This document shows, piece after piece, positions 10,171-49,924 of a stretch of 64,000 bases of DNA. A program made the translations under genes and the position numbers. The stretch covers positions 372,001 to 436,000 of the forward strand of contig NC_060258.1 in NCBI RefSeq assembly GCF_921293095.1, in the 5' to 3' direction. How positions within the stretch are numbered: position 1 is the first letter of the stretch; each line of letters starts with the position of its first letter. This stretch comes from Ischnura elegans. Lineage: Eukaryota > Arthropoda > Insecta > Odonata > Coenagrionidae. The notes beneath the pieces were generated by a model. The model was not told the DNA's origin, did not search any database, and was given only the letters and a program-made list of their open reading frames with translations.

Positions 10171-10555
10171 GTAAGTGCAGTATTTTGACCATAAAAATTA
10201 AGAGCTCTTTCGACATTGTTTGACATTGATTATAAGAGATTTTAAGCTTCTGCGAGAGGAAATGTCTTTGTAATTTTATAAAATATAACATGATTCCATT
10301 TGGAATCAGTGGCCCAGATGTATGTGTTAAGTTTGACCGAGTTTGCAAAGCATCATTTTACTGAAAGTAAGCTCATTAGTTGAGATCCAACGAAATAGTT
10401 GGTATTTTAAATACGAATTAGAATTGACGGAACGTGTTAATTGAATATCTCATGAACGGAATTGTCTAATTGTTTTTTCAGTGTATTTATGTTTAGTAAA
10501 GCCACAGGGATTTTGGAAAATAGATTTTATTTTCACCGAATCATTTCCATTTCAG
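10171..10555 (+). other. Putative 5' UTR intron of the piggyBac transposase
   Basis: A consensus donor (GAG/GTAAGT at 10,171) and an acceptor with a pyrimidine-rich run (CATTTCAG ending 10,555) enclose 385 bases just before the favoured start codon. Upstream ATGs at 10,154 and 10,158 would give very short out-of-frame peptides after splicing. RNA evidence would settle it. Confidence 0.5.
10292..10314 (+). repeat. piggyBac left subterminal inverted repeat
   Basis: GATTCCATTTGGAATCAGTGG and two more bases. It matches 12,564-12,586 in reverse complement except for the central ATTT/AAAT bases. The first part is itself a palindrome (GATTCC...GGAATC). A related half-site lies near 9,945-9,960. Confidence 0.8.
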
Positions 10556-10558
10556 ACG

Positions 10559-12373
10559 ATGGCGACATCATTGACGACTAAGGAAATAGTGTACATTTTA
10601 GAAGGTGACATCTCTGATATTGACATCTCAGATGATGAAGACATCTCAGAGGAAAACCCGGATTGGCTTTTGAATAGAGAAGCAGTCGGACCTGACGTTA
10701 TGAATACCGAGGTACAGGGTTTTCCGAACATCCCTGATGTCGGACTTGCTTTTGAAGTAAATAAGTGTAGTGATGATAGTGATGATGATGACATGCCTTT
10801 GGCACAACGTTATCCGCATCTAATGAACCAATCGCAGAGAAAAGTAAATAGGTCATTATGGACTTATGAAGACCTAGGTTATGTTGATTCCTCATGTGAC
10901 TCTCAATTTTCACCACCTCCTGATGAAATTAGCACCCCATTTTCATATTTCAAGCTTTTTGTTGATAATGATATGATAAGTAATATTGTAGAGCAAACTA
11001 ATCTCTATTCAGTGCAGGAAAAATGCCAAAATGTAAACACTAATGACAAAGAAATACATCAGCTCCTAGGAATTCATATGATTATGAGCATTGTCACAAT
11101 GCCAAGTTACTCCATGTTCTGGAGTGAAAAGTCGCGATATGGTCAAATTGCAGATGTCATGTCTCGCAATAGATTCAAAACTTTGCGAGGTAATCTACAT
11201 TTTAATAATAATGACAATATGTTGTCCCGTGATGATCCTGCTTACGATAAACTGTTCAAAATCCGGCCATTTTTAAATGCTCTAAGGAAAAACTTCCTGA
11301 AAGTGGAACCGGAAGAGCATAATTCAGTGGATGAATTTATGATTCCTTTGAAAGCTCATACAGCATTGAAGCAGTATATGAAAAGCAAACCACACAAGTG
11401 GGGAGTGAAGGTTTTTGCTCGTGCAGGGGTTAGCGGATTTGTGTATGATTTTGAAATTTATCTGGGCAAGCAAACTAATGTAAAAGAATCTGGTCTTGGA
11501 ATCAGTGGTGATATTGTCATTCGGCTAGCAGAAAATATCCCTAAGCACAAAAATTTCAAATTATATTGTGATAACTGGTTTTCCTCGCCTAAACTATTCT
11601 CGCAACTAAGGAAAGATGGTATTTTAGCTGCAGGAACTATCCGTAGAAATAGGCTAGGGCAATGCACTTTGAAAAGTGACAAGGAGTTGAAAAAACAAGG
11701 GAGGGGTAGCTTTGATTATAGACTTGAGAAAAGTGAAAATACGTTTGTTTTGAAATGGCTGAACAATAAACCAGTGTATTTAATTTCCAACTTTGTTGGG
11801 GCTCATCCTGTGGAAAATGTTCGACGCTGGTCTGTAGCAGAAAAAAGGTACATAGACGTGCCACAGCCAAATATTGTTCGTGCGTACAATAAGCATATGG
11901 GAGGAGTCGATAAACAAGATATGCTTCTGGAACTTTACAGAACAAACCTCAAAGGGAAGCGTTATTACCTCAGGGTGATTTTTCACTTCATCGACCTCAG
12001 TGTTGTAAATGCTTGGCTGTTATACCGCAGACATTGTGAGCAATTGAAAGAAAAATATATGCCCTTGATTGAGTTCAAATTATCTGTAGCTCATGCATTA
12101 CTCTACTTTGGTCCCAATATCTCTAATAAGAGAGGAAGACCATCTTCATCACCGAGTGTGGAGGGAAAAGGAGTGGCGAAAAGAACTTTTACACCACGGC
12201 CGGTGGCCGATGTTCGATTCGATGGGATTGATCATTGGCCTTTGCATGTAAATACTAAAAATAGATGTAAATTGTGCATAAAAAGTTATACGCGAGTGAA
12301 GTGCGAGAAATGCAACTTACCATTGTGCTTCTCCAACGAAAAAAACTGTTTCAAAACTTTTCATGTAAAATGA
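10559..12373 (+). CDS. piggyBac transposase, intact, 604 aa
   Basis: This DDE/D-type transposase cuts the element out and reinserts it at TTAA. The start at 10,559 is preferred to the in-frame ATG at 10,481 because a strong splice acceptor ends at 10,555. The first ~90 residues are acidic (ISDIDISDDEDIS; CSDDSDDDDMP), as in other piggyBac proteins. The catalytic core shows the expected aspartates: D258 in SVDEFM, D338 in LYCDNWF, and D451 with D454 in GGVDKQDM. The C-terminus (about 565-604) is a Cys-rich zinc-binding tail (CKLC, CEKC, LCFS, KTFH). The length is close to the moth piggyBac enzyme (about 594 aa). No stop or frameshift was seen. Family assignment is firm; activity is inference. 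Confidence 0.96.
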   Translation: MATSLTTKEIVYILEGDISDIDISDDEDISEENPDWLLNREAVGPDVMNTEVQGFPNIPDVGLAFEVNKCSDDSDDDDMPLAQRYPHLMNQSQRKVNRSLWTYEDLGYVDSSCDSQFSPPPDEISTPFSYFKLFVDNDMISNIVEQTNLYSVQEKCQNVNTNDKEIHQLLGIHMIMSIVTMPSYSMFWSEKSRYGQIADVMSRNRFKTLRGNLHFNNNDNMLSRDDPAYDKLFKIRPFLNALRKNFLKVEPEEHNSVDEFMIPLKAHTALKQYMKSKPHKWGVKVFARAGVSGFVYDFEIYLGKQTNVKESGLGISGDIVIRLAENIPKHKNFKLYCDNWFSSPKLFSQLRKDGILAAGTIRRNRLGQCTLKSDKELKKQGRGSFDYRLEKSENTFVLKWLNNKPVYLISNFVGAHPVENVRRWSVAEKRYIDVPQPNIVRAYNKHMGGVDKQDMLLELYRTNLKGKRYYLRVIFHFIDLSVVNAWLLYRRHCEQLKEKYMPLIEFKLSVAHALLYFGPNISNKRGRPSSSPSVEGKGVAKRTFTPRPVADVRFDGIDHWPLHVNTKNRCKLCIKSYTRVKCEKCNLPLCFSNEKNCFKTFHVK

Positions 12374-28800: not shown

Positions 28801-29819
28801 AACATTAAAACATCATAAAGTTCACAGAGAGGAATTGTACTCACAGTAAAATTGGACCTCGCAAATGAATAGGCAGGCTAATTCAGAAGTTGTCTTCTAG
28901 CTTGCTGTCTTCAAAGAGCGTCTTAACAGCGTCTTCTCAGGTCTGAAAGTAAGCGTAGGATTATATTACACTCATCTCTAATTTTCCGATGTCTTTGCTA
29001 TTTATCTTTAAGTACTCGAAATAACGTCGATCATAGATAGCATGCGATTCATGCCTTTCAGGTCGGGTAAGGTCTACGATTTCCACACCGAAGGAAAATT
29101 TCCTGGATGAGTTATTGACTCACAGGTAATTGACGCATTCATTGGGGAGGTTTTATTGGAGCAAATAATAATGAGTGCAGAAATGAGAAAGTATTTCATG
29201 AAATTCATGGTTGAGATGACTGTCAGACTTCTAAAAAGGAAAGGAAAGTTATTGCTGATATGAGCTATAGAAAACGAATACTTTGAGTGAAGAATGATAA
29301 TGATAGACAAAAATATTGCCGATATCTTTTGAAAAAGATCAATTTAATGGCACAAAGCGAATCTCTGAGTTTCAGAAAGGAGCGAAAGATCAGCTAATTA
29401 AATGATGTGAATTTCAGAAGTATGGCTTACATTTTTTCCAACTCAATAATGTTGTTTCACCTTTTTTATCTAGTGATACAGATGGTCATGCGAATTATTC
29501 ATTGTTTGCTAAGATGGCCATCTCAGCGTAACATATTTCCATAGGATAGTAATATTCTCTTCCTTTATTGTAAGAAAGTGTATTTCTCATTAATATTAAA
29601 TACGCTCATCAATTTCAATTTGGGTCAATGTTTATGATCCCAGCGGTTTCAGAACGGACGAATCAGGTTGTTTATGGTAGTCTCTGGCAAAGTTAAGTAA
29701 ATACATGAGATACCTGCTTTGTAGGTGCATTCTTTAAATGTCTTCACCGGCCTGACACGCGCACGTAAGGTAATTTCCTCTTCACTCCAATATATTACGT
29801 ACGTTTTATCTACACTACA

Positions 29820-30010
29820 TATCCATAGGCACTCGACATAACGCGTCCACGATGTCTTGCTCAACAGATAGCATGAGATTCACACTTTTTCAATATGGCG
29901 CCTGCCGAAGAAATAAGTGTTTGCCTATTTGGCTGTGGGTTAAAGTCCTCGCCTGCAAAAACGAGGTCGTTGGATGCAGCCCCACTTGTGCAGGCATGCA
30001 CCACCACACG
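29820..30010 (-). other. Conserved patch with shared minus-strand frame (unit B copy of M7)
   Basis: The minus strand reads SPTRVVVHACTSGAASNDLV, followed by AGEDFNP and ISSAGAILKKCE. The same frame is readable at 38,500-38,330 and, for a shorter span, at 50,070-49,925. The DNA core (ACGAGGT..TTGGATGCAGCCCC...GTGCAGGC) is better conserved than its flanks. It could be a decayed exon, a structured RNA (GCCTGCA/TGTGCAGGC can pair) or chance. Confidence 0.35.
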
Positions 30011-32514
30011 TGTAGGCGATTGAGCTTGGTCGTTATCAATTACATTCCGCTGAAGAAAATGCCTTATAAGGGTTGATAAAGATTAATAGCAACGGAATGT
30101 TTTATTGAGGTTGTGAAAACGGTTTCATATGCATAAAATAGTCAGTTTTCATCATTAAATGTTCATTGTCTATTCCTATGTACTTGATTAAATATACTTA
30201 AATCGATACCACTTTATATTTGGCCTGACGTATCTAAAATGAGGCATATGATCTTTGAACCTGGCCTTAATATTTCTCATTGTCCGGTTGGCTTAAACTG
30301 AATTACAGAAGGAGCTACTAATTCTGAAGATACTAGACTTTTGTGAGGGATCAAATTTATCCTTTGAATTACTGAACAAATGTTGTAGTTATTCTTACTG
30401 ATAATACATATCTTATTATAAACTGCTTTCAGAATATTCCCTAGAATTTTTAAATTTTTGGTCGAACGTAAGTTTGCTACATTCATTATATTTATTCTGC
30501 TTAATGTTGGTGGCGTTTTAAATAAAAATTTTTTACGGTTGTCGTTATTTACTAAAAATCGAATAATATACTCTGTGAAGGTTTGCTTTTGGTTATGATT
30601 AAATTTCTTTAGTAATGATGTTGATCAATCTTCATGTATTTGATTTTAGTGGGATGAATATTTACTAGTCTGTGCAAAAGAGGATGAAAAATGCGTTTTT
30701 GCCCGTTATGTACGAAAGAATAATAATGGAATTATTGTTTTTCGTACATATAGATTTCCTTCGGAAATCGTAAGAAATTTTTATTGTTGACTCGTTGTAT
30801 CAAATTCGCCTGTTGGTTTGTTTGTACTTAGGGAGAAATCCTAGCAACTGGATTCCTGGCAATACGGTGATTAGCTGAAGTGCTAAAAAAACTCACGGAT
30901 ATCGCAGACCTGGATGATAACAAATTTAATTTTTTATAATAAAAACCTCTAATGTTTAATATCTTTAAAGCCATTATGAAATTTGAGGAGGGTCTTGATA
31001 AAAAAGTTTTGAATAAGTTTTTTATTTCCCTTGTGGATTTGAAATAATAGAAACAAAAAAAATACATTAAACCTTACACTAAGATAATTGAAAAATGAAA
31101 GTGAATGTTAATCCATCCATTTTTGAAGGATTATAGAAAAAATTTTGTCTCACCTGATACAAAAAACTAAAAATGGATAGGACACCTATGACAATAATGC
31201 TATTTGATTTGAAGTGTTTTAGTATCATTTGTATAATATATTTAAATAATATTAATTTGTCATTAACGCTGAAAGTTAAAAGCAGGTACTTGTTAGATTG
31301 ACAATATAGTTTTTTTCTTCAGCTTAGTTGCACACGCGTTTCAAATCATTCGTTATTTAATGATTTTTTTCCAGCTCCCACGGTCAATAATCCACTCTGA
31401 GATAATTGTAAATCCAATTTCAAACTCGAGTGCATAGCTTCTTACGGACGGGTTTACGATTGCGCCAAACTGTTATCTCATATCGCGTGATGTCTCTTAT
31501 CGTGCAGCCACTGTTACTATGTGAAGTCTTTTGCCGTGTAAGCGGAAAATTCGACATTTTTATTCGAAGTAATTACGACATTTCATATCTGAAGTATCTG
31601 TCTGTCATTTTATTTTTAATAACTGATCAACTATTGCACGTTAGTTTTTTAAAAATATGTTGTGTATTTCGTGGGAAAATAAACTTCTAATGGATTAATT
31701 TGATAGTGTTAGTTCAGTTTAAAACCTAAGGTATGACAGTGTTTCGCATCCGATTTGTTCTCAGAGATCAGTAACACACAAAATCTATTATAACTTTTTC
31801 TCACTAACTAATTTTCTCTTCTACATAAACGTCATATTTGAACTCTAACCAATCAGCGACGATTGTTCAGTGAAATAGTGGCCCAAAATACGCTACGAGA
31901 AGTGAATGAGCACTAAAACTTAGTTGCTGCGTGTTGATTGATTTCAAGGGACTTTGATTTCTTAATCTTCGTGAATGCAACCAATATACCTTCCTCCGTT
32001 ACTATTTATCCAGAACCCCCTTCTTATTTCTAACTTTATTTCTTTCCACTCTACTCTGTTTAGCCTCCTTATAACCTATACATCCTCATAATAAACATCA
32101 TAAATGTTATCGGTATATGCTGAAATTTCATAAATTCTTAAAGCGGCAGAAGAAACGAACAGATAGATTCAACGTGAACACATGATGCACTAAATAAGCT
32201 GCATACTATGAAACCATCTTTCGAACATCACTCACACATACTTATGTATGGAATGAATGAAACGAGAAATGATAAAAAGTCATGTGGAAAAAACGTCTAA
32301 AACCCTAGTATCCAGTGTCTAAACACCAACATGTGTCTTTTTTTCTATCAACATTCAGTTGAACTTTGATACAAGATAGTTAAAAGGACCGGCATTATTT
32401 CCTCACTTACAAATGTTTCGGAATGTCCTATTTTACTTAAAGAGATACATATAAAGAAGTAGGAGCAGGAGAATGAGTGGAATCAACAGTTATACAGTAA
32501 TTTATATATGAATC

Positions 32515-32807
32515 CATGGGCTTAGCCTGCCAGGGGCAAGAGGGGGAGATGCCCTCCCCTTAAACAAAAGTCTTTTAAGTAGTTTTAGGACTGGATTGAA
32601 ACGAAAGCCTATAGTTCACTAAAAATATTTGTGCAAGAAATGTAACTAAGCAAAGTTTCTTTAAGCAAACGATTTTAAAAAATAATAAAACGCTGTTATA
32701 ATTATCTTATAATGTTAGTTCCATTGACCTTTTCCATATTTAAATATTACAACTTTAACAAACGTTGCTTAACCCTCCATCAACTTTTGATCCTTGGCAC
32801 GCCGTTG
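32515..32807. mobile_element. hAT-type MITE, unit B copy
   Basis: Orthologous to 39,841-40,139 and 53,878-54,185. The ends are related to CATGGGTGTACCC (left of the unit C copy) and, reverse-complemented, CAAGGGCGTACCTAGGA (right of the unit D copy). The body is AT-rich without an open frame. Confidence 0.6.
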
Positions 32808-35800
32808 TCTATTATTAAACATAAATTAAAATTATTTATAATATATAGGGAAATAAATCAGTTGATGTTTTCTAAGATTCTCTTGTTCCATTATTGATAT
32901 ATCTTTCGACCCCATAAATGTTATCAAAAATAGATTTTTTACTTTTTTGGAACAATTCTACTGTGTATAAATAAGCCAAACCGAATATAATCTCAGAAGA
33001 GCCTGTATTTAAAATTATTTTATTGGCATTTATTTTATCAATATCAGATTGAAATACAATAATTAATGACTATTTATGAAATACATGAAAGCATTTTGAG
33101 TTGAATGTACAACAAAATGTGTGTTCATTCTTATACATTAATAATATATAATATAATTCAAAACATTCATATACATTTTGGTAATGGGGTTCCAGACCTA
33201 ACTATAGACGTTGACATTTACGGAACATGTGCGGAAAAAATCAAAAATGAATTGTGTGGATAATCTTCAATTTAAATGTTACAGATGTTTTTTTATACGT
33301 ATTGCTCAAATAAATATTCTAATGACCACATCAGGCAAAGATTTTTTCCGAAATCGATATGCATCAAAAAGTTCTGTTTTTTAATATTTAGGGTTATCAC
33401 CGACATCCAAAACAAGATCCCAGGTAGCATATCATAAGTCATTGAGTTTAAATGAAAGGAAGAAAGAAGGAAGGGGCTAATCAAGCAAGTTTGTTATGGG
33501 TTTCTTACGGCCAGGCCGACAAACATCCAGAGTAATGACAAAATGGATGCCAAACTTTCAGCAATTCCAAAACGCAAATTTTTTATTCAAGATTAAAAGT
33601 CCCTGATTTTACGTACAAAATTTAGTTTTCCATTGCACCCATACTACTTTCATGAACTTCATAAATAGTCATTTATTTTTTAAAATTCAATGTGTAATGA
33701 TAAAATTAGTACCAATAAAATGTGAAATAAAGCAAATATTTTCTCTTCTGATATCTCTAATTTCTTTCAAACCATAAATCATGTCTATTTTATCGTGGAT
33801 TTAGGTTAGATAATACAGCATATCACCGGACATAATAGAACATATCATCAAAGAATTTTAACTACCGAATATAAAGATTTTGTCAAATACGTGGCATGAA
33901 AAGGCATAGGATTATATCTGACGGTAATAACAGCATAATCCTACGAGGCAGCAATGTAAGGTATTGTGGGTTGGATAATTGCCTATACATACCTAATTCG
34001 GCCAATGTAAAGAAAGCGCAACATTTTGTTCGCGATCCGATTTCCGCTTAACTTATTGACGAAACACCTCTAAGCTTTAACATATAATAACTGAAGTTTA
34101 GAGGTTTATATGGGCGAATTAGAAACTTGAATAAGGGATTAATTACTCGAAGGAAAACGTATTTTTCTTGCGTACCATGTGACTTGATAATTGAAACATT
34201 TTGAGTATTTCCTAAAATATCGAGATACTTATTAAATGTCATTATTATCTCACTAATAATTGGTACAAACTTAATTTAATCAAATAAAGCGATTTCTACA
34301 TGAATGAAAGTAAACTGAAACATTTTTTGCATTCTTTAATAATGTTGCGTTTTCGCAGCTTTGGCCGAAAATGGCATATCAAGGTTTGACTGTATTTTTA
34401 TTCGTAATCATTTTATCGTCATTTTAAATCGTCATTTAACTAAAATATGTTTAAATCAAGCCCTAATGCAACAGTGAAATAAAAAGCCGTCGAGAGTTTC
34501 GTAAAAGATTTTCTAGAGAATACTATTTATTATCCACATTTTTTTTAATATTCACATTATTTGAAATTATTGATCCCAAATCATCAAATGGAATAAAATA
34601 TTCTGTTCATTCAAATTGGAAATTAATAGAGGTCAATTACGGAGCTCATATGTTATTTTTACTCCAGATAAGCAGCCTTGAATGTCCGCCATTAGCTTCG
34701 GCCACGCCCAGCCCACGAACAGTATTCTTATCGGCCGACGCCGCGTGAAGTGTGAACAATATGATCAACTCGCGACTAACGTTAAGAGCATCAGAAGACG
34801 AATTCATCCCATTGGATAAATTTACAAATGATCCTCATAATTACGCAACAAGGAAATAACTTTATACCGGTTTGTGCTTTAAATCTTCAACCCAATCATT
34901 AAAGATTCTGTATATATTTTTTTACCACAGAGTAAATTATATCGCTCCGCAAATCAACGTAAATGTATGCAAGGAGGAGTACAGTTATTTGTACTTACTG
35001 TTAAAAGGTTGCTATGGCGAATGAAAAATACCAATAATAATAACTAAATTCGTTTTCTTGCAGCTAATTCCGGAATTTTACGGGAACAAAGTCGTGGGGT
35101 AAACTACAGCTCTGGGAGAGGAGAAAGTATTTATTGAGGCACAAATATACCCAGATCATCTGTTGCGAATTATTGGGACTATTAAATATCGTCTGTATAG
35201 ACGGCAAGAGAAAATTGTATACCTGTAAATGCTTGAAATATATAGTTAGTGATGGAAGGAGATAAAGTTGCGATTTTGCACTTTCCTGTGCCCTGTTTTG
35301 TGGGCGGATACATAGTTTTCCCCATTTATAAACCATTTTTAATCAATACATTTATAAAAATTTACTTGAATTAACATTTGATCTTTATGTGCGCGAATGA
35401 TGCAGAGCATTCCTTTAAATTTTTATCTAAGCTTCATCTATGAAGCTAGCAGTCCTCTCTATCATACGCAATCACTGTGGAAGAGAGGCCTTGTCTTTCC
35501 AGGGTTGGTATCACTGTATTCGTGACAAGAGTAGAGCTAGGAAGGCAAATGCAATAAAGCAAGAATAGATTTAAGGTGACACACGTGAGGGAATTTCTGG
35601 TACCTTCTTCTCCAGAGAGAAAGATATTGGGGTCTAGGGAAGACAATGTATGACTTATTACAACCCAATACATCCTACTCAAATCTTTCAATATTCGTCA
35701 ATGCAAACAACTTTTTGAAACACAGGGATCGCCATCTTGGATTACACCCAAGGGAACTTTTCCAATCTCCTAATTAATACAAAATAATAAACAGAAACGT

Positions 35801-36654
35801 CGGAGCATTGAAATACCACAAAGTACAGTTATTGGAGTTGTACTCACAGTAAAACTGGACCTCGCAAATGAAAAGGCAGGCTAATTCGGCAGTCTTCTTC
35901 TAGCTCAGTGTCTTCAAGGTGCGTCTAAACGGCGTCTTCTCCGGTAGGAAAGTAAGCGAAGGATTATCTTACACCCATTTCATATCCTCCGTTTTTTTTG
36001 CTATTTATCTATAAGTTCTCGCAATAACGACGTTCATAGATAGCACGTTATTCATGTGTTCACGTGAGGGATGTGTGCGATTTCCACAGCAAAGGAAGAT
36101 TTCCTGGATAAGGTGTTGACTTAACAAACTGAGATATATGGCGTATTATTGAGGAGATTTATTGGAGTGAAAACACTGAGTTAACTTTTGATAAAGTATT
36201 TGTTGAAATGCAAGTTTGAGATGAATATTATACTTCTAAAAAGAACATATGCTGACGTGAGCTCTTAAAAAAACAATTACTTCGAGTGAGCAATGATAAT
36301 GATAGACAAGAATGGTATTTTTTTAAAAAGATCAATTTGTAGTACGAGTCGAATTTAATGTCTAAAAAACGGACGAGAGAGCAGTTAATTGAAGAATGTT
36401 AGTTGCGGAGGCATAAATTTAATTGTTTCCATCTGAATAACGTCATTTCATCTTACTAATCTAATGGGTCATTGGAAGAATTCATAGTTGGAACGATCGC
36501 TGGCTCAGCGTAACAAATTTTCATGCAATAATATTTTATGTATTTATTTTAACAAATAGTATTTCTCATTAATTTTAAAAAAAGCTCATTGAATTTGATT
36601 TGAAACAATATTTATTAACGTAGCAAATTCCTAATGGACGATTCATAATATTTT

Positions 36655-36740
36655 ATACAGCCCCTGTCAAAATTTAATGAACATTTGAGTGATCTGCTGT
36701 CTACGTGAAGACTCTAAATTTCTTGATCGGTTTGACACAT
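36655..36740 (+). repeat. 85-bp repeat, left copy in unit C
   Basis: Its core, GTGATCTGCTGTCTACGTG...AGACTCTAA...CGGTTTGACACATG, recurs at 38,140-38,225, and once in unit D (49,760-49,845). The two unit C copies bracket about 1.4 kb absent from the other units. Confidence 0.65.
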
Positions 36741-38139
36741 GTTCTTTGATAATATATCTCCTTTCCAAAATTACATACTATATTATGCATCATTGAAATA
36801 CGAAAAATTCAATATTCAAGGCGCATCCTTACCCATTCTTTCATCAAATCATTTCAGTCGCATTATTTATTGCCTAATGTGCGGAATAATTTCAATCATA
36901 GTAACCGGTAATACTGACCATTATATACCAGGGTTGCTTTTTCCCGTGGTTATTTACCCACACAAAATTACGGATAGTTTGCTATTAAAATTTTTAATTA
37001 CGTTTTCTAGCATACGAGGCCTATATGTTATGCCTGTTGCATACTTCTTTACCAACGCTGAAATTTGGGGTCACGAAGACTACACCCTCACGTAATTCGT
37101 CGGTTAAGAATGTTTTACATTATATGGGATTCAAGTAGTCGGGAATCGATATCTAATAAAGCTCGCGTAAGGCGTCACGACAAATGAATGCCATAACCAA
37201 AAATTGAGTTAATTCGGCGAAGATAATTTGCTGTGAATGTGTAATGATTATGAAAAAATCTTGCGCGACCTGTTATGAAAGCCGTGTTACGCTGATTTGC
37301 GTCGTTTGCGCCATCTATACAGTGATAATAAAAATATATTTTAGAATGTCTATTTTTATGTGTATTGTTAATAACCAAAATTTTCGTGCTTGGTTATACT
37401 TTTGAGTGCCTATATTTTGCGTTCATAGCAGGTTTTAGAATAGCTAATTTTATGGCTGTGTGTGAAAATAATTTACAGGCCAGGCGATAGCTATCTTTTA
37501 CATTATTCCGTGCTCATATATTTAAGAATAGATGAACAGTTATGATGTGTATGAAATGTCGAATTTTTATAAATAAACCTCAAGGAATATGCGAATGCTG
37601 GATTTTTGAGGTTTGAGCTTATCTCGGTTGAAAGGTGGTAACATTTAATAGATCCGCGCTTTTTGGATTTCTGTCTTCGAAATTAACTTGATCGGCTGGG
37701 TATTGGTGCAATGAATTGGTCTTAGTTCGAAAGTAAAAAGAAGCTGTTATATTTTTTTAAGTATGTTGGGTTCAAATCTTTATAATCAGAAAGAGAAAAG
37801 CTACAATTCTAGGACAAGGGTCAAAATACGAAAAATCGGCGATATTTCACAAGTGCATCCACCGTAAATTTTACATTTCTCTTCATTACGTAAATATTCT
37901 ATTCAAAACGGTCTTAACGCTTATATCATCGTGGTTACTAAGACGACGTTAAGTATTGTTAAGAGCGAAAGTGCGTATCCTCCGTCTATTTCATCTTTTA
38001 AAACGATATTGTAAGTGTTTTCTTTCCCTTTTTAAGCAACTTATGGACCCAATACTCGAACACGCGTGACACAAACATGTTTCCACCCCCCTCTCGAACC
38101 CGATTTCATCAAGCGCCTATTGACTCGTTATTTTATAAT
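36741..38139. other. Unit-C-specific segment
   Basis: About 1.4 kb found in no other unit. It includes a 118-codon open frame (36,739-37,095) with no recognised domain and two hydrophobic stretches. It may be an insertion or sequence lost from the other units. Confidence 0.4.
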
Positions 38140-38225
38140 GTTCCTGGCTAAATATAATGAATATATGAGTGATCTGCTGTCTACGTGCAGACTCTAATCA
38201 TCGTGATCGGTTTGACACATGCACG
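38140..38225 (+). repeat. 85-bp repeat, right copy in unit C
   Basis: Direct partner of 36,655-36,740. Confidence 0.65.
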
Positions 38226-38329
38226 TAGGCTTTATCTCTTCTTAACACCACTTACCCGTTTTACCTACGCTATATATCTATAGGTACTCAACATAACGCG
38301 TTCGCGATGTCTTGCTCTGCAAATAGCAT

Positions 38330-38500
38330 GAAACTCACACCTTTTGAATATGGCGCCGGGCGAAGATATTCGTATTTGCCTCGTTGAAAGTGGTTTATAG
38401 TCCTCGCCTGCAAAAACGAGGTTGTTGGATGCAGCCCCATTTGTGCAGGCATGCACCACCACACGTGTAGGCGATTGAGCTTGGTCGTTATCAATTACAT
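38330..38500 (-). other. Conserved patch with shared minus-strand frame (unit C copy of M7)
   Basis: The minus strand reads VVHACTNGAASNNLVFAGED, then ISSPGAIFKRCEFHA, in the same frame as the unit B copy. See 29,820-30,010. Confidence 0.35.
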
Positions 38501-39840
38501 TCCGCTGAAGAAAATGCCTTATAAGGGTTGATAAAGATTAATAGCAACGGAATGTTTTATTGAGGTTGTGAAAACGGTTTCATATGCATAAAATAGTCAG
38601 TTTTCATCATTAAATGTTCATTGTCTATTCCTATGTACTTGATTAAATATACTTAGAACGACATCAATTTATTTTTGGTCTTTCGTATCCAAAATGAGCC
38701 GTATGTTCATTGAATGTGGCCTTAATATTCTTCAGTGTCCATCAGCTTAAACTGAATTAACAGAGAAGCAATTCTTTCAGCAGATTTTAGACTTTTGTGA
38801 GAGAACATTTTTATGCTGAGCATTACTGAACAAATATTTTAGTTTTTCTTACTGATAATACATATTTTATTATAAACTGCTTTGAGAACGTTCCCTAAGA
38901 TTTTCAAAATGCAGTTCGAACGTAAGTTTGCCATATTCATTATTTTTATTCTCCGTAATGATGGTGGCGCATTGAAAAAAACATTTTTATGGTTGTCGTT
39001 ATTTACTAGAAATCGAATAATATACTCTGTGAAGGTTTGGTTTTGGTGATATTTCTTTAGTAATGATGTTGATCAATCTTCAAATATTTGGTTTTCGTGG
39101 GAAGAGAATGTTTACTAGTCTGTGCAAACGATAAAAATGCGTTTTTTCCTGTGATGTGAGAAAGAATAATAAAGGAAATGTATATAAATTATTCGTAATG
39201 AAATAGTGGCCCAAAATACGCTACGAGAAGTGAATGAGCACTAAAACTTAGTTGCTGCGTGTTGATTGATTTCAAGGGACTTTGATTTCTTAATCTTCGT
39301 GAATGCAACCAATATACCTTCCTCCGTTACTATTTATCCAGAACCCCCTTCTTATTTCTAACTTTATTTCTTTCCACTCTACTCTGTTTAGCCTCCTTAT
39401 AACCTATACATCCTCATAATAAACATCATAAATGTTATCGGTATTTGAGGTAATTTTATAAGTTCTTAAAGCGACAGAGAAACGAACAGATAGATTCAAC
39501 GTGAACACATAGTGCACCAAATAAGCTGCATACTATGAAACCATCTTTCGAACATCACTCACACATACTTATGTATGGAATGAATGAGACGAGAAATGAT
39601 AAAAGGCATATGGAAAAAACGTCTAAAACCCTAGTAACCAGTGTCTAAACACCAACAAGTGTCTTTTATTCTATCAACATTCAGTTGAACTTTGATACAA
39701 GATAGTTAAAGGGACCGGCATTATTTCCTCACTTACAAATGTTTCGGAATGTCCTATTTTACTTAAAGATATACATATAGAGAGGTAGAAGGAGGAGATT
39801 GAATGGAATCAATAGTTATATACTCATTTATGTATGTAAT

Positions 39841-40139
39841 CATGGGTGTACCCAAAAAGGGGCAGGAGGGGGGGATGCCCTCCCCTTAAGGAAAAGCCTT
39901 TTAATTAGTTTTAGGACTGGATTGAAACGAAAGTTCACTAAAAATATTTGTGTAAGACATGTAAATAAACAAAGTTTTTTTAAGCAAATGATTTTAAACA
40001 CTAATGAAATTGCTGTTATATTTTTCTTTGTGTTATGATTCCAATGTTACTTTTGTAGAGCTTTTCCATATTTAAATGTTACGACTTTATCAAACGTTGC
40101 TTACCCCTCCCCCAACTTTTGATTCCGGATTAGTCCTTG
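39841..40139. mobile_element. hAT-type MITE, unit C copy
   Basis: Begins CATGGGTGTACCC after TATGTAAT (39,833-39,840), the same 8 bases that follow the right end of the unit D copy (54,186-54,193). This suggests the original 8-bp target duplication. Confidence 0.65.
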
Positions 40140-42071
40140 TGTGTTTTTACACATGAATTGAAATTATTTAGAATATATTGTTAAATAAATCAGTTGATGT
40201 CTTTTAAGATTCTCTTGTGCCATGATTGATATATCTTTCGATCCAATAAATCTTATCAAAAATACATTTTTACCTCCTTGAAACAATTCTACTGTGTATA
40301 AATTAGTCAAACCGAATAATATCTCAGAACGGCCTGTATTTAAAATTATTTTATTGGAATTATTTTATCAATATCAGATTGAAATACAACATATTTGACT
40401 ATTAATGAAATACATGAAAGCATTTTGAGTTCCATTGAACACAAAATTTGTGCATTCATATCAATTTTGATAATGGGTTGAAGACATAATTATAGACGTT
40501 GACATTTAGGGAACATTTGAAAGACAGGACGAAACGTCATATGTAGATACTTATAACTGCGGACCTCTTTTGAAATTCCATAGGAAAGGTATTAGTACTT
40601 TTCATTAAACTCATTATCAAAAAGCAGAGTTGTCTCCTTAGGGGAGGAATGACTTTTATTTTACATTAACGTTTTCTCCTACTTGTTTAGAGTCGGAATG
40701 TGCGGCAAAAATCAAAAATTAATGGTGTGGATTATTTTCAATTTAAATGTCAGAAAAGTTTTTATTAAAAATACGTATTACTCATATAAATAAACTATTG
40801 ACCACATTTGAGAAAGTTTTTTTCTGTCACTGATAGTTATCAGAAAAATTCGTTTTTTTAATATTTAGGGTTATCATCGACTTCCACAACAAAATCCCTG
40901 CTAGTATATTATAAGTCCTTGAGTTAAGATAAAAGGAAGAAATAAGGAAGGCGCTTATCAAGCAACCTTGTTATGACTTTCTTACGGCCAGGCCGACAAA
41001 CAACCAGAGTAATGACAAAATTGATTCCAAAATTCCAACACTTCCACAATGCAAAAATTTTATTCAAGATTAATAGTCCCCGATAGAATATAATAAAACC
41101 CTCGGAATTAGACAAAGAGGAACATGAAAACAATCATTTTATGAAGCTGTAGGTCTTAGTATTTTTTGATGGAATGATAACTCGGTTGTCACTGTGGACA
41201 GCAATTCCAGTTCAACGCTCCAGTGGGGCACATGGAAAGGTTTCAGCAGAAAAAAGAAAACACTATTCCACAGCCTCATGTTATTGGGGAGTATTTTCAA
41301 TAAATCAGAGCTGTGGACCTACTTGTTAATGCAAATGTGTATTACCGCACTGGTACTCAGGGGAAATGGGTCCTAGTTTATCAATTCAATGGACAGTGTT
41401 TGTAGTAACGCCTGGAAATTGTACATCCAATGCAAAGGGAGTAAATTTCACCGGTAGACTTCACATCGCATCAAGCAGGGACGTATCTAAAAAGTGAAGT
41501 AAATGAGTAAGTAGATGACATATCCGTATGCAATTCACGTCCATAAATATTGAAAAAGATAGGCCTAGCAACTCATCGCGGATTCGGGAAGCATGAAAGG
41601 ACGAATTTGGCAAGAGACTTCAAAAAGTGAGACCAGAAGTAGTTTCCGAAACGTCAGTATAAAAGCCATACCATATATGAATGTACAACATTTGTTTTTT
41701 CATTGAACCAATACTGCTTTCATATACTTCATAAATAGCCATTAATTTTTTTAAAATTCAATCTGCAATGATAAAATTAGTAACAACTAAAATGTGAAAT
41801 AAAGAAAATATTTTCTCCTCTCATTTCTTTCAAACCGTAAAGGGTGTCTATTTTATAGTGGATTTAGGTTATATAATACAACATCTCACCGGACATAATA
41901 CAACTTAAAATTAAAGATTTTTAACTATCAAATATAAATACATTTTTCAAATACGTGGCATAAAAAGTCATAGGATTATATCGGACGGTAAAAACGGCAT
42001 ACTGCGACGAGGCAGCAGGATAAAGTATTGTGGGTTGGATAATTGCCTATAGATACCTTATGCGGCCAATG

Positions 42072-42110
42072 CACAGTGGTCCCAATTGCGAATCTAGCAG
42101 GACAAAATTA
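42072..42110 (+). repeat. Transib left end, RSS-like
   Basis: CACAGTG (42,072-42,078), exactly 23 bases, then ACAAAATTA (42,102-42,110). CACAGTG equals the consensus heptamer of V(D)J recombination signals. The 9-mer shares its first six bases with the consensus nonamer ACAAAAACC, at 23-bp spacing. Confidence 0.75.
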
Positions 42111-42506
42111 TTTTTCCCAAAAAACATAGAGCTTTTGTTGTGAAAACATTCAGAATTGCCAAGTTATAGACAAAAACACAAAATAACTCTATCATAGGTT
42201 TTTTCAAGGTGGTTTTATGGGAAAAATTAAAATTTTTTTATTACAAAATAATTTCGTGTTACTTTACACTTTGAAAAGTGTGAAGAAAATCATTTACAAA
42301 TCTATAGTAATGCGCTTTTCTAAATTTAATGAACTAATTACGTTGAAAATATACTCCTAAACACAGGATTTACACATAAAATCGTTTTTCACAGAATGTG
42401 ATCTGCGGAATATTAGTCACCTTCATCATTATTACTCTCCCAACTCTCTTCATTTCCGACATTTACCGACGCCACGTCCTCCATCTCTTTAACATTACTC
42501 ATTTCA

Positions 42507-43560
42507 TTAGGCGGAGGTAATATTGGTTACCTGAGAAGCTGTCTGACATCCATCGAGAGGTTGCAATGAACTAATACTGAAAAAATAAGGATCAGATGTG
42601 ACTAATAGTAGGTTAAAAACATCTCTCATTGTGTCCTTTATTGAGTATTTAGCGCGTGATTTTCTTTGAATTTCCGAATATGCTTGCTTCTTGGGCCTCT
42701 TCGGAAAGAATTCCAATGGGAACTAATACAATGGAATGCAATGGGGGCAATCAATCACTTTTGTCTCATGAATTAGATTTCATGTACCGTGAAAGGCATA
42801 TAATACCATGACGCATGTATGGTATGGTAATAGTATGACGCATGTTTATTTTTTCTGTTTTTAAGCATACTTCTCAAATTCACTTGTACTTATGGAGAAA
42901 CCACAGGAAAGTGAGGTAAGAATTGCTCCAAACCATTGAAATAATTACTACTCCCATCTTAACCCCACTTAAATATCATCGTTAGTTTGAATTCATCACC
43001 AGACCGAAGGAAAGCGGCGACAACATCTTTCTAAGCCAAAATAGTATTATTCTGAACTAAAGCCAGTAATTTGACCTCGGCCGAAGTATCAGTAATGGTC
43101 AGTTCTTGTGATGGGGGATACAAAGGCAACTTTGAGTTCATCTTGTATGAGGGATAAATATCGCACCGTCTCTGGTTGGCCTCTCTTCTGATGTTTACGC
43201 ACTTTTGCTTAGTAGGTTTTTTCCATGGAAAAGGACAAAGCCTCTAATGATGAATATGGTATTGGAATCAAAGGTGAAGACAATTAAGCCTTCTCATAGT
43301 TGGTGGCTCTCTTTGGCATGTTTTCAGTTATATCTTTTATAATTGCAGCCGCATCTTTTTCCCAGAGCTTGGCAATGAAATCTGGCTTGCAAAACAAGCT
43401 TCTACTTTCGATATATCCTTCAAAAGAGACTGTACGCATCTAACAAAATCTGTCGTATTTTCTGGAGCAATATTTCAACTTTTTATCAAAATTACTTTTA
43501 AATAGCATGACAATTTTCCTGATATCCTTTGCGGTGTCTATGTTACAGCTTTCAAATCGT
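42507..43560 (-). pseudogene. Transib (RAG1-like) transposase remnant
   Basis: Read on the minus strand from right to left: FIAKLWEKDAAAIIKDITEN (about 43,390-43,330), YPPSQELTITDTSAEVKL (about 43,130-43,075), GDEFKLTMIFKWG-stop-DGSS (about 42,995-42,945), and a C-terminal open frame 42,716-42,507 with SIKDTMRDVFNLLLVTSDPY. From memory of the family, the T-x-TSAEV-L block, KWGxDGSS (holding the first catalytic Asp) and LLVTSDP are Transib/RAG1-like signatures. Frames change between blocks, and the distance from DGSS to the C-terminus is far too short for the remaining catalytic residues, so the centre is deleted. Confidence 0.7.
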
Positions 43561-44373
43561 AATATATGTTCTACGCATTTAGTAAGTCATCTATAGTATT
43601 TTATTCCTCAGCAATTGTAACAATTCAATACGATTTACCGCCGGTATCTTGAATAGCTCTGAATGCGACATGATTTTCCCCATTGATATAAAAATGTAAA
43701 TAATTGTAAGCCATGTAATAGCTATACCATGAATATTAATAAAAAAAATTGTACCATACAAAACTACAATAGTTAAAATTAAAAATATTTCTTCTCTAGC
43801 GTAATTTACCCCGATATCCTCCGAGGAAATACCCCCCAGTCCCGCGTCTCAACGGCTCTCGTTTGTTAACTTCATGGAACAAAAAGGGCATTATTGTTAA
43901 AAAGCGCAAGTAAGCGCAAAATGTGATGAAAATATCTATAACTACAAGGACGTTTCCACATGTCTTTGAAGGTTTCGCAATCCTACCTCGACATATATTT
44001 TTTATAAGTCAATTTAAACAATTGAAGTCAATAAAAAAACGAGGTTTTAAAGACTGAGAGAAATCTAGTATTTTAAAACAATTATATTTGAAGAAAAATC
44101 ACTCAAAATGATGCTATATACCGATGGCTATAAGATCCCGTTAGAAATTGTCGTTCCTTGCGTTATTGCTATCTAGCAGGTACGTGTTAATGCTAGCGAG
44201 TCAACCACCGTTTGGGTGTAGGCCGAGGGTAGGCAATTTCAACGCTTAACTTTGCAGCTGCATGACATTGTTATAACTTATATAAACGTTGTAAAAGTTA
44301 ACAATCATGATGAAGCATTTAATTGCGGATATCGCTACACCTACGGCAACTTTATTTTTAAAAGTTGCAAACA

Positions 44374-44412
44374 TGACTTTTTCTCGCTAGATTAGCGATT
44401 GGGACCACTGTG
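44374..44412 (-). repeat. Transib right end, RSS-like
   Basis: Reverse complement: CACAGTG, 23 bases, then AAAAAGTCA. The first 15 bases equal the left end. The nonamer-like part is weaker (5 of 9). Confidence 0.7.
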
Positions 44413-47400
44413 CAATGTAGCAAAAACGCAACATTTTGTTCGCGATCCCATTTTCGCTTAACTTACTGACGAAATACCTATAAGCTGTAACATAAAATAA
44501 CAGAAATTTAGAGGTTTATATGGGCGAATTAGAAACTTGAAAAAGGGATTAATTAATATTAGGAAAACATATTTCTCTATACATGCAATCCGTATGCAAT
44601 TCACGTCCATAAACATTGAAAAAGATAGGCCTAGCAACTCATCGCGGATTCGGGAAGCATTAAAGGACGAATTCGGCAAGAGACTTCAAAAAGTGAGACC
44701 AGAAGTAGGTGCCGAAACGTCAGTAAAAAAGCCATACCATATACGAATGTGAAAATTTTGTTTTTTTATGCACCCATACTGCATTCATGTAATTCATCAA
44801 TATTCATTAATTTTTTAAAATTTAGTCTGTAATGATAAAATTAGTACCACTTAAAATGTGAAATAAAGCAAATATTTTCTCTTCTGATATCTCTAATTCC
44901 TTTCATATCGTAAAGAATGTCTATTTTATAGTGGATTTAGGTTAAATATTACAACATCTCACCGGGCATAATACTATAAACATCATATAAAAAACTTCAC
45001 AATCAAATACAAAGATATTTGTCAAATACGTGGCATGAAAAGACATAAGATTATATCTGACGGTAAAAACGGCATATTCCTACGAGGCAGCATTGCAAGG
45101 TATTGTGGGTTGGATAATTGCCTATACATACCTAATTCGGCCAATGTAAAGAAAGCGCAACATTTTGTTCGCGATCCGATTTTCGCTTCACTTATTGAAG
45201 AAATACCTATAAGCTTTAACATATAATAACTGAAATTTAGAGGTTTATACGGACAAATAAGAAACTTGAAAAGGGGATTAATTAATCTCAGGAAAACATA
45301 TTTTTCTTGCGTACCAAGTGACTTGATAAGTGACACATTTTGAGTATTTTCTAAAATATCGAGATACTAGATAAATGTCATTATTATCTCACTAAAAATC
45401 GGTTTAAACTTAAGTTAATCAAATAAAGTGAATTATATACGAATAAAAGGAAATTGAAAGATTTTTTGCGTTTTTTAATAATATTGCGTTTTACAGCTTT
45501 GGTCGAAAATGGCTTATCAAGGTTTGACAGTATTTTAAATCGTCATCATTTTATCGTCATTTTAAATCGTCATATAAGTAAAATAGGTTTCAATTAAGAC
45601 CGTGAACATAGAAATAAAAAGCCGTCGAGAGTTTCGTGAAAATTTTTCTGTAGAATACTATTATCCACATTATTTCTTTTATATTCACATTATTTGAAAT
45701 TATTGATCCCAAATCCTCAAATGCAATAAAATATTCTGTTCATTCTAATTGGAAATTAATTGAGGTCTATTAGGGAGCTCATATCTGATTTTTACTCGAG
45801 ATAAGCAGCCTTGAATGTCCGCCATTAGCTTCGGCCACGCCCAGCCCACAAACAGTATTCCTATCGGCCGACGCCGCGTGAAGTGTGAACAATATGATCA
45901 ACTCGCGACTAATGTTAAGAGCATCAGAAGACGCATTCATCCCATTCCATCGGATAATCCATCGGATAATTTTAAAAATGATCATCATATTGTCGCACAA
46001 AAAAAAACTTTGTACCGGTTTTTGCTTTAAATCTTCAACCCAATCATTAAAGATTCTGTACATATTTTTTTACCACAGAATAAATTATATCGCTCCGCAA
46101 ATCAACGGAAATGTAAACAAGGAGGTGTAAAGTTATTATACTTACTGTTAAAAGGTTGCTAAGGTGAATGAAAAATACCAATAATAAATTCTCAATTCGT
46201 TTTCTTGCAGTTAAATCCGGGAACGTTATGGAAACAAAGTCGTGGGATAAACTACAGCTCTAGGAGAAGACAAAGTTTTTCATGAGGCACAGATATACCC
46301 TGATCATCTAGTGCGAATTATTGGGACACATAAATATCGTCTGCATAGAGGGCAAGAGAAAATTGTATTATATGCAAATGCATGGAATGCATAGTTGGTG
46401 ATGGTAGGTGAATACGTTGAGATTTTGCACTTTGCTGTGCCCTGCTACGTGGGCATATTCACAGTTTTCCCCATTTTAAAGCCATTTCTAATCAATACAT
46501 TTGTAAAATTTTACTTGAATTAACATTTGATCTTTGATGTCTTCAGGATGATGCAACGCCTTCCTTTAAATCCCTAACTAAGCTTCATCTATGAGGCTAG
46601 CAGTCCTCTCTATCAAACGCAATCATACTGGAAGAGTGGCCGTCCTTCCAGGGTTGGTATCACTGCATTCGTGGCAAGAGTAGAGTTAGGAAGGCAAATG
46701 CAGCAAAGCAAGAAAAGATTCTAGGTGATAAACGTGAGGGAATTTCAGGTAGCTTCTTTTGCAAAGAGAAAGATATTGGATTTCGAGGAAAGACAAATTA
46801 CGACTTATTTCTATCCAATTCTTCCTACTCAAATCTTTCAATATTCGTCCATGCCAACAACTTTTTGAAACGCAGGGATCGCCATATTGGATTACACCCA
46901 AGGGAACTTTTCTTATCTCCTAATTAATGGATTAGAATAATCAGAAACGTCGGAACATAAAAATACCACAAAGTAAAATTATTGGAATTGTACTCACAGC
47001 AAAACTGGACCTCGCAAATGAAAAGGCAGGCTAATTCGGCAGTCTTCTTCTAGCTCAGTGTCTTCAAGGTGCGTCTAAACGGCGTCTTCTCCGGTAGGAA
47101 AGTAAGCGAAGGATTATCTTACACCCATTTCATATCCTCCGTTTTTTTGCTATTTATCTATAAGTGCTCGCAATAACAACGTTCATAGATGTCATGTGAT
47201 TCATGTGTTCACGTGAGGGATGTGTGCGATTTCCACACCGAAGGAAGATATCCTGGAAAAGGTGTTGACTTAAGAAACAGAGATAAATGGCGTATTCTTG
47301 GGAAGATTTTATTGGAGTGAAAACACTGAGTGGACTTTTGATAAAGTATTTGTTGAAATGCAAGTTTGAGATGAATATTATACTTCTAAAAAGAACCTTT

Positions 47401-47702
47401 GCTGAAGTGAGCTCTTAAAAAACAATTACTTCGAGTGAGAAATGATAATGATAGACAAGAATGGTATCTTTTTTAAAGATCAATTTGTGGTACGAGTCGA
47501 ATATAATGTCTAACAAGGGGAATACACGACCTTCGCATCGCCGATCGAGCTCAAATTTTGCGATTCAGTAGTTTATGGGTACAAATGTAATATGCCGAAG
47601 GGAGACGACGCACTTCTCGGAAAATTCCGAGAAAAAAGCAATTAAAAATCGTAAAAATGAAGGTACGCTATATAAACGGTTTTGAACGCCTTTGTTAAAC
47701 AA

Positions 47703-47780
47703 TTGGGCGACAGCCCAGTGGATACGGTGCCCGACTGTGGAGGTGAAGGTAGCGAGATCGATGCTCGCTCAGGGAACTTT
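47703..47780 (+). repeat. tRNA-derived module in the left arm
   Basis: GGGCGACAGCCCAGTGGATA with an A box (CAGCCCAGTGG, 47,711-47,721), then GACTGTGGAGGTGAAGGT, then a B box (GAGATCGATGC, 47,754-47,764), tRNA-like in order and spacing. An inverted copy lies at about 49,190-49,268. Confidence 0.65.
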
Positions 47781-48337
47781 TTTTTTGTTAATTTTTAAGG
47801 ATTTTATTGTTTAAATTTTTAAAGTTCGTTTTCTTATCTTCGTTATACTATGGAATATATTTTTAAAAGAGCTTTTTTTAATTATTTAAATCCAGAATGG
47901 ATCAGCTTGGGATTAGGAACTGAGGATGAAGGGTGGATAGAAACCCGGCGTCGGCATTAGCCTGCTCTTAACGAAAGGCGCCAAGGGGACCATGGCTTAA
48001 CGTCCCATGCGACGGACGGTGTACTGCACAACTAGTGTAATCCACATTACACGCAGGGATTGAATTTAGGAATGCCCCTTAATTCTTTACCGAGATTTGG
48101 ATGTGGAAGGCCAGTACACTGCCTCACCACTCCGGTTAATCCTTTATTTGCAATTTTCGGGATGGAACTTATCATAAAGACATGCAAGGCAAAGTGATTT
48201 GCGGCACCAGGAACAAGCAGAAAAGGCGTTTTTTTCCGCAACTGCAACGACTGTCCATAATTTTTAAAGGAAAACATACGTCATTTACATTTACGAAAAG
48301 TTGTCTCGTGCCAGCACTTCTCGTGTTTCTACTTTAA

Positions 48338-48823
48338 ATAGATTCGTGGGGAGAGCAGACGAACCCCGCATTTTACGATGACATTTTTGCGGATGACAAG
48401 GGAGAGGCATCGTGCACTCTGAAAGTGATACCTCCAAATTGTACCCCATTATGCCAGCCTTGCGACGTGTATTTTTTCAGGCAGGTGAAAATATTTATAA
48501 AGCATTTACAGAATTCCTCGATTCTATTGGAGGAAAATCGGGATATTGCGTCAAGAGAAGACGCAATAAAAATACATGCGTTAATTCATAACCAATTAAG
48601 TGCTCCGATTTTCCAAAACATGTTAAAATATGCATGGTTTGCTTCGAAGCTCGCTGGCAGGAGACAATTTTTCGTAAATGTAAATGACGTGTGTTTTCCT
48701 TCAAAAACTATGGACAGTCGTTGCAGTTGTGGAAAAAACGCCTTTTCTGCTTGTTCGTGGTGCCGCAAATCACTTTGCTTTGCATGTCTTTATGATGAGT
48801 TCCATCCTGAAAATTGCAAATAA
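48338..48823 (+). CDS. DDE-type transposase, C-terminal part, in the fold-back element
   Basis: An open frame of 161 codons has no start of its own in the family sense. It opens with DSWGEQ (a likely second catalytic Asp, as in LLxDSW), continues DDIFADDKGEASCTLKVIPP, then NCTPLCQPCDVYFFRQVK. The latter is the PPNxTxxxQPxD region that carries the third acidic residue in Tc1/pogo-like DDE enzymes. After AWFASKLAGRR comes a Cys/His tail (CSCGKNAFSACSWC, CFACLYDEFHPENC). The N-terminal DNA-binding half and first catalytic residue are absent. The tail coding region (from about 48,653) lies in the right arm and is mirrored in antisense in the left arm. The open frame suggests recent origin, but the piece cannot be a full transposase. 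Confidence 0.75.
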   Translation: MDSWGEQTNPAFYDDIFADDKGEASCTLKVIPPNCTPLCQPCDVYFFRQVKIFIKHLQNSSILLEENRDIASREDAIKIHALIHNQLSAPIFQNMLKYAWFASKLAGRRQFFVNVNDVCFPSKTMDSRCSCGKNAFSACSWCRKSLCFACLYDEFHPENCK

Positions 48824-49189
48824 AGGATTAACCGGAGTGGTGAGGCAGTGTACTGGCCTTCCCCATCCAAATCTCGGTAAAGAATGAAGGGGCATTTCTA
48901 AATTCAATCCCTGCGTGTAATGTGGATTACACTATTTGTGCAGTACACCGTCCGTCGCATGGGACGTTAAGCCGTGGTCCCCTTGGCGCCTTTCGTTAAG
49001 AGCAGGCTAATGCCGACGCCGGGTTTCTATCCACCCTTCATCCTCAGTTCCTAATCCCAAGCTGATCCATTCTGGATTTAAATAATTAAAAAAAAGCTCT
49101 TTTAAAAATATATTCCATAGTATAACGAAGGTAAGAAAACGAACTTTAAAAATTTAAACAATAAAATCCTTAAAAATTAACAAAAAAAA

Positions 49190-49268
49190 AGTTCCCTGAG
49201 CGAGCATCGATCTCGCTACCTTCACCTCCACAGTCGGGCACCGTATCCACTGGGCTGTCGCCCAATTG
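49190..49268 (-). repeat. tRNA-derived module in the right arm
   Basis: Inverted counterpart of 47,703-47,780. Because it is in both arms at the same position, it was present before the arm duplication or was carried by it. Confidence 0.65.
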
Positions 49269-49924
49269 TTTAACAAAGGCGTTCAAAACCGTTTATATAG
49301 CGTACCTTCATTTTTTACGATTTTTAATTGCTTTTTTCTCGGAATTTCCCGAGAAGTGCGTCGTCTCGCTTCGGCATATTACATTTGTACCCATAAACTA
49401 CCGAATCGCAAAATTTGAGCTCGATCGGCGATGCGAAGGTCGTGTATTCCCCTTGTAAGAAGGGGACGACAGAGCCGCTAATTGAAGAATGATAGTTGCG
49501 GAAGCATAAATTTGATTTTTTTTCCAACTCTTTGACGTCGTTTCATCTTACTAATCGAATGGGTCATTGGAAGGATTCATAGTTTGAACGATCGCTGGCT
49601 CAGCGTAACAAATTTTCATGCTATAAAATTTAAGTATTTATTTTATAAAAATGTATTTCTCATTAATATCAAAATTGCTCATCAAATTTGATTTGAAACA
49701 ATACGTATTGAACTAGAAATTTATGAATTGACGATTCATATTATTTTATACAGCCCCTGGCCAAATTTAATGAATAAAAGCGTGATCTGCTGTCTTCGTG
49801 CGGACTCTAAATTTCTTAATCGGTTTGACACTTGCACTAATGCTTGATTACTTCCTAACTCCAATTATCCGTTTTATCAACGCTATATATCTATCGTGAT
49901 ATCTTGATCTGCGTAGTGCATGAG

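Follow-up and report, generated by a model that had tools for sequence, protein, structure and literature searches.

An insertion assigned to a non-autonomous Transib family in Ischnura elegans, with ends that resemble V(D)J recombination signals

The Transib group of DNA transposons is the source of the antibody-gene recombinase, and the ends of its members reportedly resemble recombination signal sequences (RSSs), an observation said to go back to Kapitonov and Jurka in 2005. The case for Transib ends as ancestors of the V(D)J signals has been built mainly on the heptamer, and its nonamer side is weaker. Hztransib is described as having terminal inverted repeats, a 5-bp target-site duplication and a deduced protein of 489 amino acids (PMC1852546). 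Most Transib families, HzTransib among them, are said to carry symmetric terminal inverted repeats that resemble the RSS nonamer little or not at all, and a GC bias is given for the targets of both Transib and RAG (PMC8289069). Other sources describe Transib ends as symmetric with 20- to 22-bp spacers, some showing 12/23 asymmetry (PMC8355894), and credit some Transibs with consensus heptamers and nonamers at varied spacer lengths (PMC6941560). A Transib segment related to the RAG1 nonamer-binding domain has also been published (PMC9435367).

We analyzed a 64-kb stretch of I. elegans DNA (the window), in which a 2341-bp feature is almost certainly a single inserted copy of a cut-and-paste DNA transposon from a non-autonomous Transib family (Table 1). 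This assignment is made because of the length of its target-site duplication, its termini and the homology of its transposase. As the original prediction stated, exact CACAGTG heptamers form both termini, a nonamer-like box lies 23 bases inside the left one, and a perfect 5-bp duplication, CAATG, adjoins the element on either side. Bases 1 to 15 are the same at the two ends, both of which open with CACAGTGGTCCCAAT, and the inverted repeat spans 49 nt including the duplication, with 82% complementarity. The right inner box of this copy has decayed, such that four of the six bases of ACAAAA are found at spacer 23 and five of six at spacer 21, unlike other copies of the same family (family A hereafter), which carry ACAAAAGTC at 23 bases in the right end. 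The heptamer alone conveys little information because CACAGTG occurs seven times in the window, where 4.5 occurrences are expected.

Table 1. Coordinates within the window of the insertion, its parts, and the corresponding unoccupied sites.
Feature	Start	End	Strand	Remarks
Unoccupied site, CAATG once, first local paralogue	34003	34007	+	Self-comparison and joined-flank alignment
CAATG, 5-bp target-site duplication, left copy	42067	42071	.	Present once in each unoccupied paralogue
Whole insertion, assigned to non-autonomous Transib	42072	44412	-	2341 bp; transposase remnant on minus strand
RSS-heptamer-like terminus CACAGTG, left	42072	42078	+	Element's 3' end relative to transposase
Left-end spacer, 23 bp	42079	42101	+	
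Nonamer-like box ACAAAATTA, left	42102	42110	+	First six bases as in RSS consensus ACAAAAACC; same box in sister copies
Transposase C-terminal remnant including LLVTSDP	42555	42923	-	tblastn, intact family-B residues 443-553
Transposase C-terminal remnant, family C	42576	42965	-	tblastn, residues 539-657
LLVTSDP	42588	42608	-	
First catalytic Asp remnant, family C	42935	43165	-	tblastn, residues 224-304
Remnant around first catalytic Asp	42944	43192	-	tblastn, family-B residues 110-196
KWG-x-DGSS (x, in-frame stop codon)	42947	42970	-	Block of first catalytic Asp
Nonamer-like box, right, decayed in window copy	44374	44382	-	Family version is ACAAAAGTC
RSS-heptamer-like terminus CACAGTG, right	44406	44412	-	Element's 5' end relative to transposase
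CAATG, target-site duplication, right copy	44413	44417	.	
Unoccupied site, CAATG once, second local paralogue	45142	45146	+	Self-comparison and joined-flank alignment

The element resembles HzTransib of Helicoverpa zea (PDB 6pqn) in its homologous transposase, its inverted repeats starting with CAC and its 5-bp duplications. It differs in that family A is non-autonomous and in that intact relatives in this genome possess extra N-terminal residues, including a G-R segment. In addition, the first six bases of the nonamer are present here at 23 bases, which distinguishes these ends from those of HzTransib and most Transibs. Compared to the vertebrate 23-RSS (CACAGTG-23-ACAAAAACC), the heptamer agrees at all seven positions, the spacer is again 23 bases and the first six nonamer bases match, but the nonamer ends in GTC or TTA instead of ACC. 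Furthermore, both ends here are of the 23 type and lack the 12/23 asymmetry of the vertebrate RSS pair. Given that RSS-like Transib ends and a nonamer-binding segment have already been published, family A adds one more family to a type already described.

Two paralogous stretches of the window cross the insertion point unbroken in a self-comparison (33613-34007 continuing into 34003-34168, and 44580-45146 into 45142-45307), and each holds CAATG once. The joined flanks of the insertion are 85.6% and 86.4% identical to these paralogues, which are 87.9% identical to each other, and 110 of 2303 positions (4.8%) in the window copy deviate from the majority sequence of the 29 other long family-A copies. 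On the basis of these identities and of the copy divergence, the insertion is probably younger than the local duplication, which gives a relative order only. Thus, the empty site had correctly been read from the sister duplicates, whereas its description as dated holds only in this relative sense. Duplicated local blocks, mostly 82 to 89% identical, surround the insertion from about 29800 to 47500 of the window.

Judged by counts over the 1.72-Gb assembly, to which all genome-wide pattern counts in this report refer, the ends of family A lie beyond chance because a 35-base end with three or fewer mismatches occurs 276 times (139 forward, 137 reverse) and its reversed control not at all. A 15-base end pattern yields an excess of about 3100 over control, which overstates the family; the 35-base count puts its recognizable ends in the genome at 276 or more. 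Twenty complete copies (2620 to 2736 bp) were fetched by exact 15-base ends. Together with copies inside other fetched loci, and with equal flanks merged, they make up a set of 31 insertions. A further copy, L042, has a perfect 5-bp duplication and is absent from the set because its 5' end could be assigned equally well to either end type. The complete copies L031 (C1) and L048 (C5) are bordered left and right by identical 10-base flanks and are counted as one insertion; the place they occupy was probably duplicated between chromosomes. Because copies were selected by their ends (exact 15-base ends or a protein match, then ends with at most six mismatches), the terminal conservation of family A, with CACAGTG at both ends in 31/31 copies, is partly built in.

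Perfect 5-bp duplications accompany 27 of the 31 copies, with distinct flanks. These duplications favor C-R-N-Y-G preceded by C and followed by G: C and G each occupy their edge of the 5 bp in 23 cases, with C just before in 20 and G just after in 18. The four copies without a plain 5-bp duplication are L036, L040, L079 and L039. In the close sisters L036 and L040, located at different sites, one additional C separates the 5-bp duplication from the 5' heptamer. In L079 each heptamer has an additional C on its outer side, and L039 shows no duplication. The additional C of the first three may mean that the cut site has moved by one base in a heritable way.

All but one of the 31 copies exceed 2.2 kb, and among these 30 the mean pairwise difference is 5.9%, with the window copy differing from the others by 7.9%; the remaining 29 measure 2606 to 2736 bp. 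Two pairs are nearly identical: L063 and L064 show a single difference over 2606 bases, and L055 and L057 show six over 2722. Within each pair the perfect 5-bp duplications differ and the compared flanks are dissimilar. Near-identical copies thus reside in unrelated sites, and therefore family A moved recently. The window copy, by its divergence, is one of the older members. Accordingly, the term "fossil" suits the window copy, which is itself an ordinary dead insertion, but does not suit the family.

The KWG-x-DGSS and LLVTSDP blocks reported earlier are both present on the minus strand, the variable position of the former being a stop codon. The same blocks recur in intact relatives from this genome, for example as KWGCDGSSGH and LLLTSDPF. 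Translated searches recover the C-terminal remnant with E values of 3.4e-8 (family B) and 0.009 (family C). A reading frame at 43031-43243 of the window, which overlaps the remnant around the first catalytic Asp, matches HzTransib (6pqn) at E=0.0014, and for a sister-copy fragment the match reaches E=4.8e-7 over 85 residues, with KWG at the very end. An intact relative with a 706-aa frame matches HzTransib at E=6.7e-110. Pfam searches with six reading-frame pieces of the window and with four sister-copy pieces returned no match, the window LLVTSDP piece alone matched no solved structure, and of five intact relatives two are hit by the Pfam RAG1 model, one of them above the cut-off. The suggested comparison with Transib thus gave a match, through the solved HzTransib chain and not through Pfam. 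The Transib/RAG1-like reading as such is upheld by the two HzTransib matches together with the 5-bp duplications.

Three sister copies (L032, L041 and L049) align with the intact 702-residue family-C transposase in two blocks, the first beginning at residue 133 or 224 and ending at 397, the second covering 532-657, and the window copy aligns over the two stretches given in Table 1. Residues 398-531 of the family-C protein are unmatched by tblastn in all four. The motif of the second catalytic Asp (family-C residue 407) is found in 0/31 copies, and a TAA precedes the first Asp in 19 of the 31; the motif gave no score for the remaining 12. These features make it very probable that family A amplified in a form unable to produce active transposase. 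The complete DDE triad is thus absent from the element itself; this marks a non-autonomous derivative and is compatible with membership in the Transib superfamily. No frame longer than 150 residues exists in the window element or in the 20 fetched copies, and the three frames of the window element and of four sister copies (L032, L041, L044 and L049) are broken throughout. The window copy has suffered an additional loss of 355 bp.

No intact family-A element was found among the best 150 protein candidates scored. Two loci were rejected as autonomous partners. One of these, L081 (C3:129491400-129497100), is a family-A copy split by a nested family-B Transib that has a 517-residue frame and whose other end is lost, and the second, L090, is a truncated family-A copy. 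Because coding capacity has been lost and yet copies moved recently, movement is expected to have occurred in trans.

Two other identities for the element deserve consideration. If the leading CA belonged to the flank, the end would begin as CAGTGGTCCCAAT and would recall hAT elements, given that CAGTGGTCCCAA resembles the ends of that group. The original prediction named 8-bp duplications in other copies as a pointer to hAT, and 0/20 fetched copies have one, whereas 17/20 have a perfect 5-bp duplication directly outside CACAGTG. Moreover, the protein remnant yields a Transib match, and the Pfam search of the pieces returned no hit of any kind. We reject the hAT reading on the duplication length and on the Transib protein match, and regard it as exceedingly improbable. 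A RAG-like (RAG1L-RAG2L) transposon would equally present RSS-like ends and RAG1-type core motifs, and ProtoRAG and its kin do share CAC termini, 5-bp duplications and a RAG1-type core with our element. However, HzTransib is the sole solved-structure match of the fragments, the intact relative reaches only E=0.0061 at best with RAG1L/RAG1 chains versus 6.7e-110 with HzTransib, and a second gene hardly fits in 2.3 to 2.7 kb. A RAG2-like gene, which sets RAG-like transposons apart, was not seen by eye in the frames of the window copy, L032, L041, L044 or L049, nor did Pfam searches of the pieces give one. ProtoRAG also differs in its inner element GCCATCTTG and 27/31 spacers (PMC8289069, PMC8355894). 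There is consequently next to no likelihood that the insertion is RAG-like rather than a Transib.

Additional Transib families were found in this genome by searching with an HzTransib piece and listing stop-free frames, which reach 714 residues. Both ends were read for families A, D and F, and one end only for B, C, E and G. In family A, CACAGTG and 23 bases are followed by ACAAAAGTC at the 5' end and by ACAAAATTA at the 3' end. ACAAAA is therefore common to both, and similarity between the two ends ceases past position 36, the last base of ACAAAA. Family D (L082, L083) carries CACATAG-23-ACAAAATTA and CACATAG-23-ACAAAATTG, family G (L089) carries CACAGTG-23-ACAAAAGTC, and family E (L084) carries CACAGTG-23-CCAAAACTA with five of the six box bases; the E and G ends were chosen among heptamer- or nonamer-scored candidates. 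Following CACAGTG, family B (L087, and the copy nested in L081) has five of six box bases at spacer 22, and family C (L085, L086) has a weak box (4/6) at spacer 22 among other places. For family F, a free-spacing pattern that contained CACAGTGGGG and ACAAAA, and so asked for heptamer and box, gave 230 matches versus 10 when reversed. The spacer is exactly 23 in 86 of the 100 matches listed, and both ends of one fetched copy carry ACAAAAGTC with this same spacing. G-type ends were found at two further places.

Thus, the ends of A, D and F are of the 23 type on both sides, with no 12/23 asymmetry, and the nonamer region and its 23-base spacing are kept among family-A copies and between most of the families read, which bears out an expectation of the original prediction. 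The rarity it attached to so close a heptamer identity in an arthropod was overstated, as CACAGTG is exact in six of the seven families (all except D, which has CACATAG) and RSS likeness of Transib ends is published.

It might be reasonable to ascribe ACAAAA at 23 bases to shared descent or A-rich composition, with no role in recognition. The families are all related, such that their ends could share ancestry; in addition, family C has a poorly matching box, and that of B lies one base closer to the heptamer. Within family A it is no clearly better kept than its surroundings, with conservation of 0.98 and 1.00 at the two ends compared to 0.99 for both spacers. Likewise, there is scarcely any enrichment of the exact RSS nonamer ACAAAAACC, with 32 matches versus 23 for the reversed pattern; four of these 32 have spacer 22 (two of them Transib-like by eye) and one has spacer 23. 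The combination of CACAATG with GGACAAAAGT gave 17 matches versus 13 for its control, 12 of the 17 having spacers of 21 to 24 with five each at 22 and 23.

Agreement between families is distributed in a manner that argues against this explanation. Comparison between A, D, E, F and G gives 3 to 11 matches over the 20 spacer positions 9-28 but 6 to 8 over the eight positions 29-36, and 0/20000 shuffles (composition-keeping, as in all these tests) reach the observed value. With F left aside, the spacers of A, D, E and G agree at 3 to 10 of 20, but the box and the two bases preceding it agree at 6 to 8 of 8. In these four families the highest-scoring run of six columns begins at position 31 with 23/24, a score that no shuffle out of 20000 equals (maximum 21). 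When B and C join them in an ungapped alignment, the top block begins at position 30 and scores 29/36, again reached in 0/20000 shuffles although by a small margin (maximum 28). We consequently consider descent or composition alone a rather unlikely explanation, and a functional inner box the likely one. In the running text of the published sources consulted, we found no statement that divergent families in one genome keep ACAAAA at 22-23 bases despite changed spacers, and this aspect seems less documented.

A candidate reader of the inner box is the N-terminal stretch of the intact transposases. Four intact relatives align there, with a G-R start and conserved basic residues, and the stretch preceding the part represented by the solved HzTransib chain ranges from about 90 residues (family B) to 190 (family C). 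A profile of the segment searched against solved structures returned HzTransib and two chance-level chains, and RAG1 was not found among them; compared directly with mouse RAG1, the profile gave a weak match (E 0.034, probability 1.5%). A structural model of the segment (pLDDT 65.5, pTM 0.30) has no match in the PDB, the best E value being 3.9. Any kinship to the RAG1 nonamer-binding domain is therefore only weakly visible in the present tests, if at all.

We propose that a Transib transposase encoded elsewhere would recognize CACAGTG and the ACAAAA box 23 bases inward at each end, the box presumably being bound by the nonamer-binding-like segment. The enzyme would excise the element and join it to staggered nicks made 5 bp apart in a GC-flanked target, leaving CAATG on both sides. 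Nick-and-hairpin chemistry is reported for purified HzTransib (PMC6941560), and we infer the same chemistry, together with mobilization in trans, for family A. The founder of the family probably had an internally deleted transposase gene lacking the second catalytic Asp, and its copies would have spread in trans only, some of them recently. The window copy would be older, the 355-bp deletion and the decay of its right inner box having come later.

The presence of an RSS-like signal in several distant Transib families strengthens a known link and does not constitute a new kind of system. It is possible, although we consider it doubtful, that the single-gene Transibs in this genome rely at both ends on a genuine two-part signal of the 23 type, read by a nonamer-binding-like segment of the transposase, that these elements are active or were so until recently, and that the 23-RSS is this ancestral symmetric Transib signal. 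If true, the 23-RSS would predate RAG2 and the 12/23 rule, and the 12-type end would be a later change. Because it combines several divergent families, some with unbroken frames of up to 714 residues and most with a box near ACAAAA at 22-23 bases, with recently moved copies, the genome offers natural substrates and enzymes with which the nonamer can be tested as an ancestral recognition element.

Other features of the window include an unbroken 642-residue frame on the plus strand at 10445-12373 that matches Pfam PF13843 (E=9.8e-77) and that we take to be a piggyBac-type transposase. An inverted pair of sequences, each about 815 bp long and 97% identical, lies at 47509-48320 and 48646-49460.
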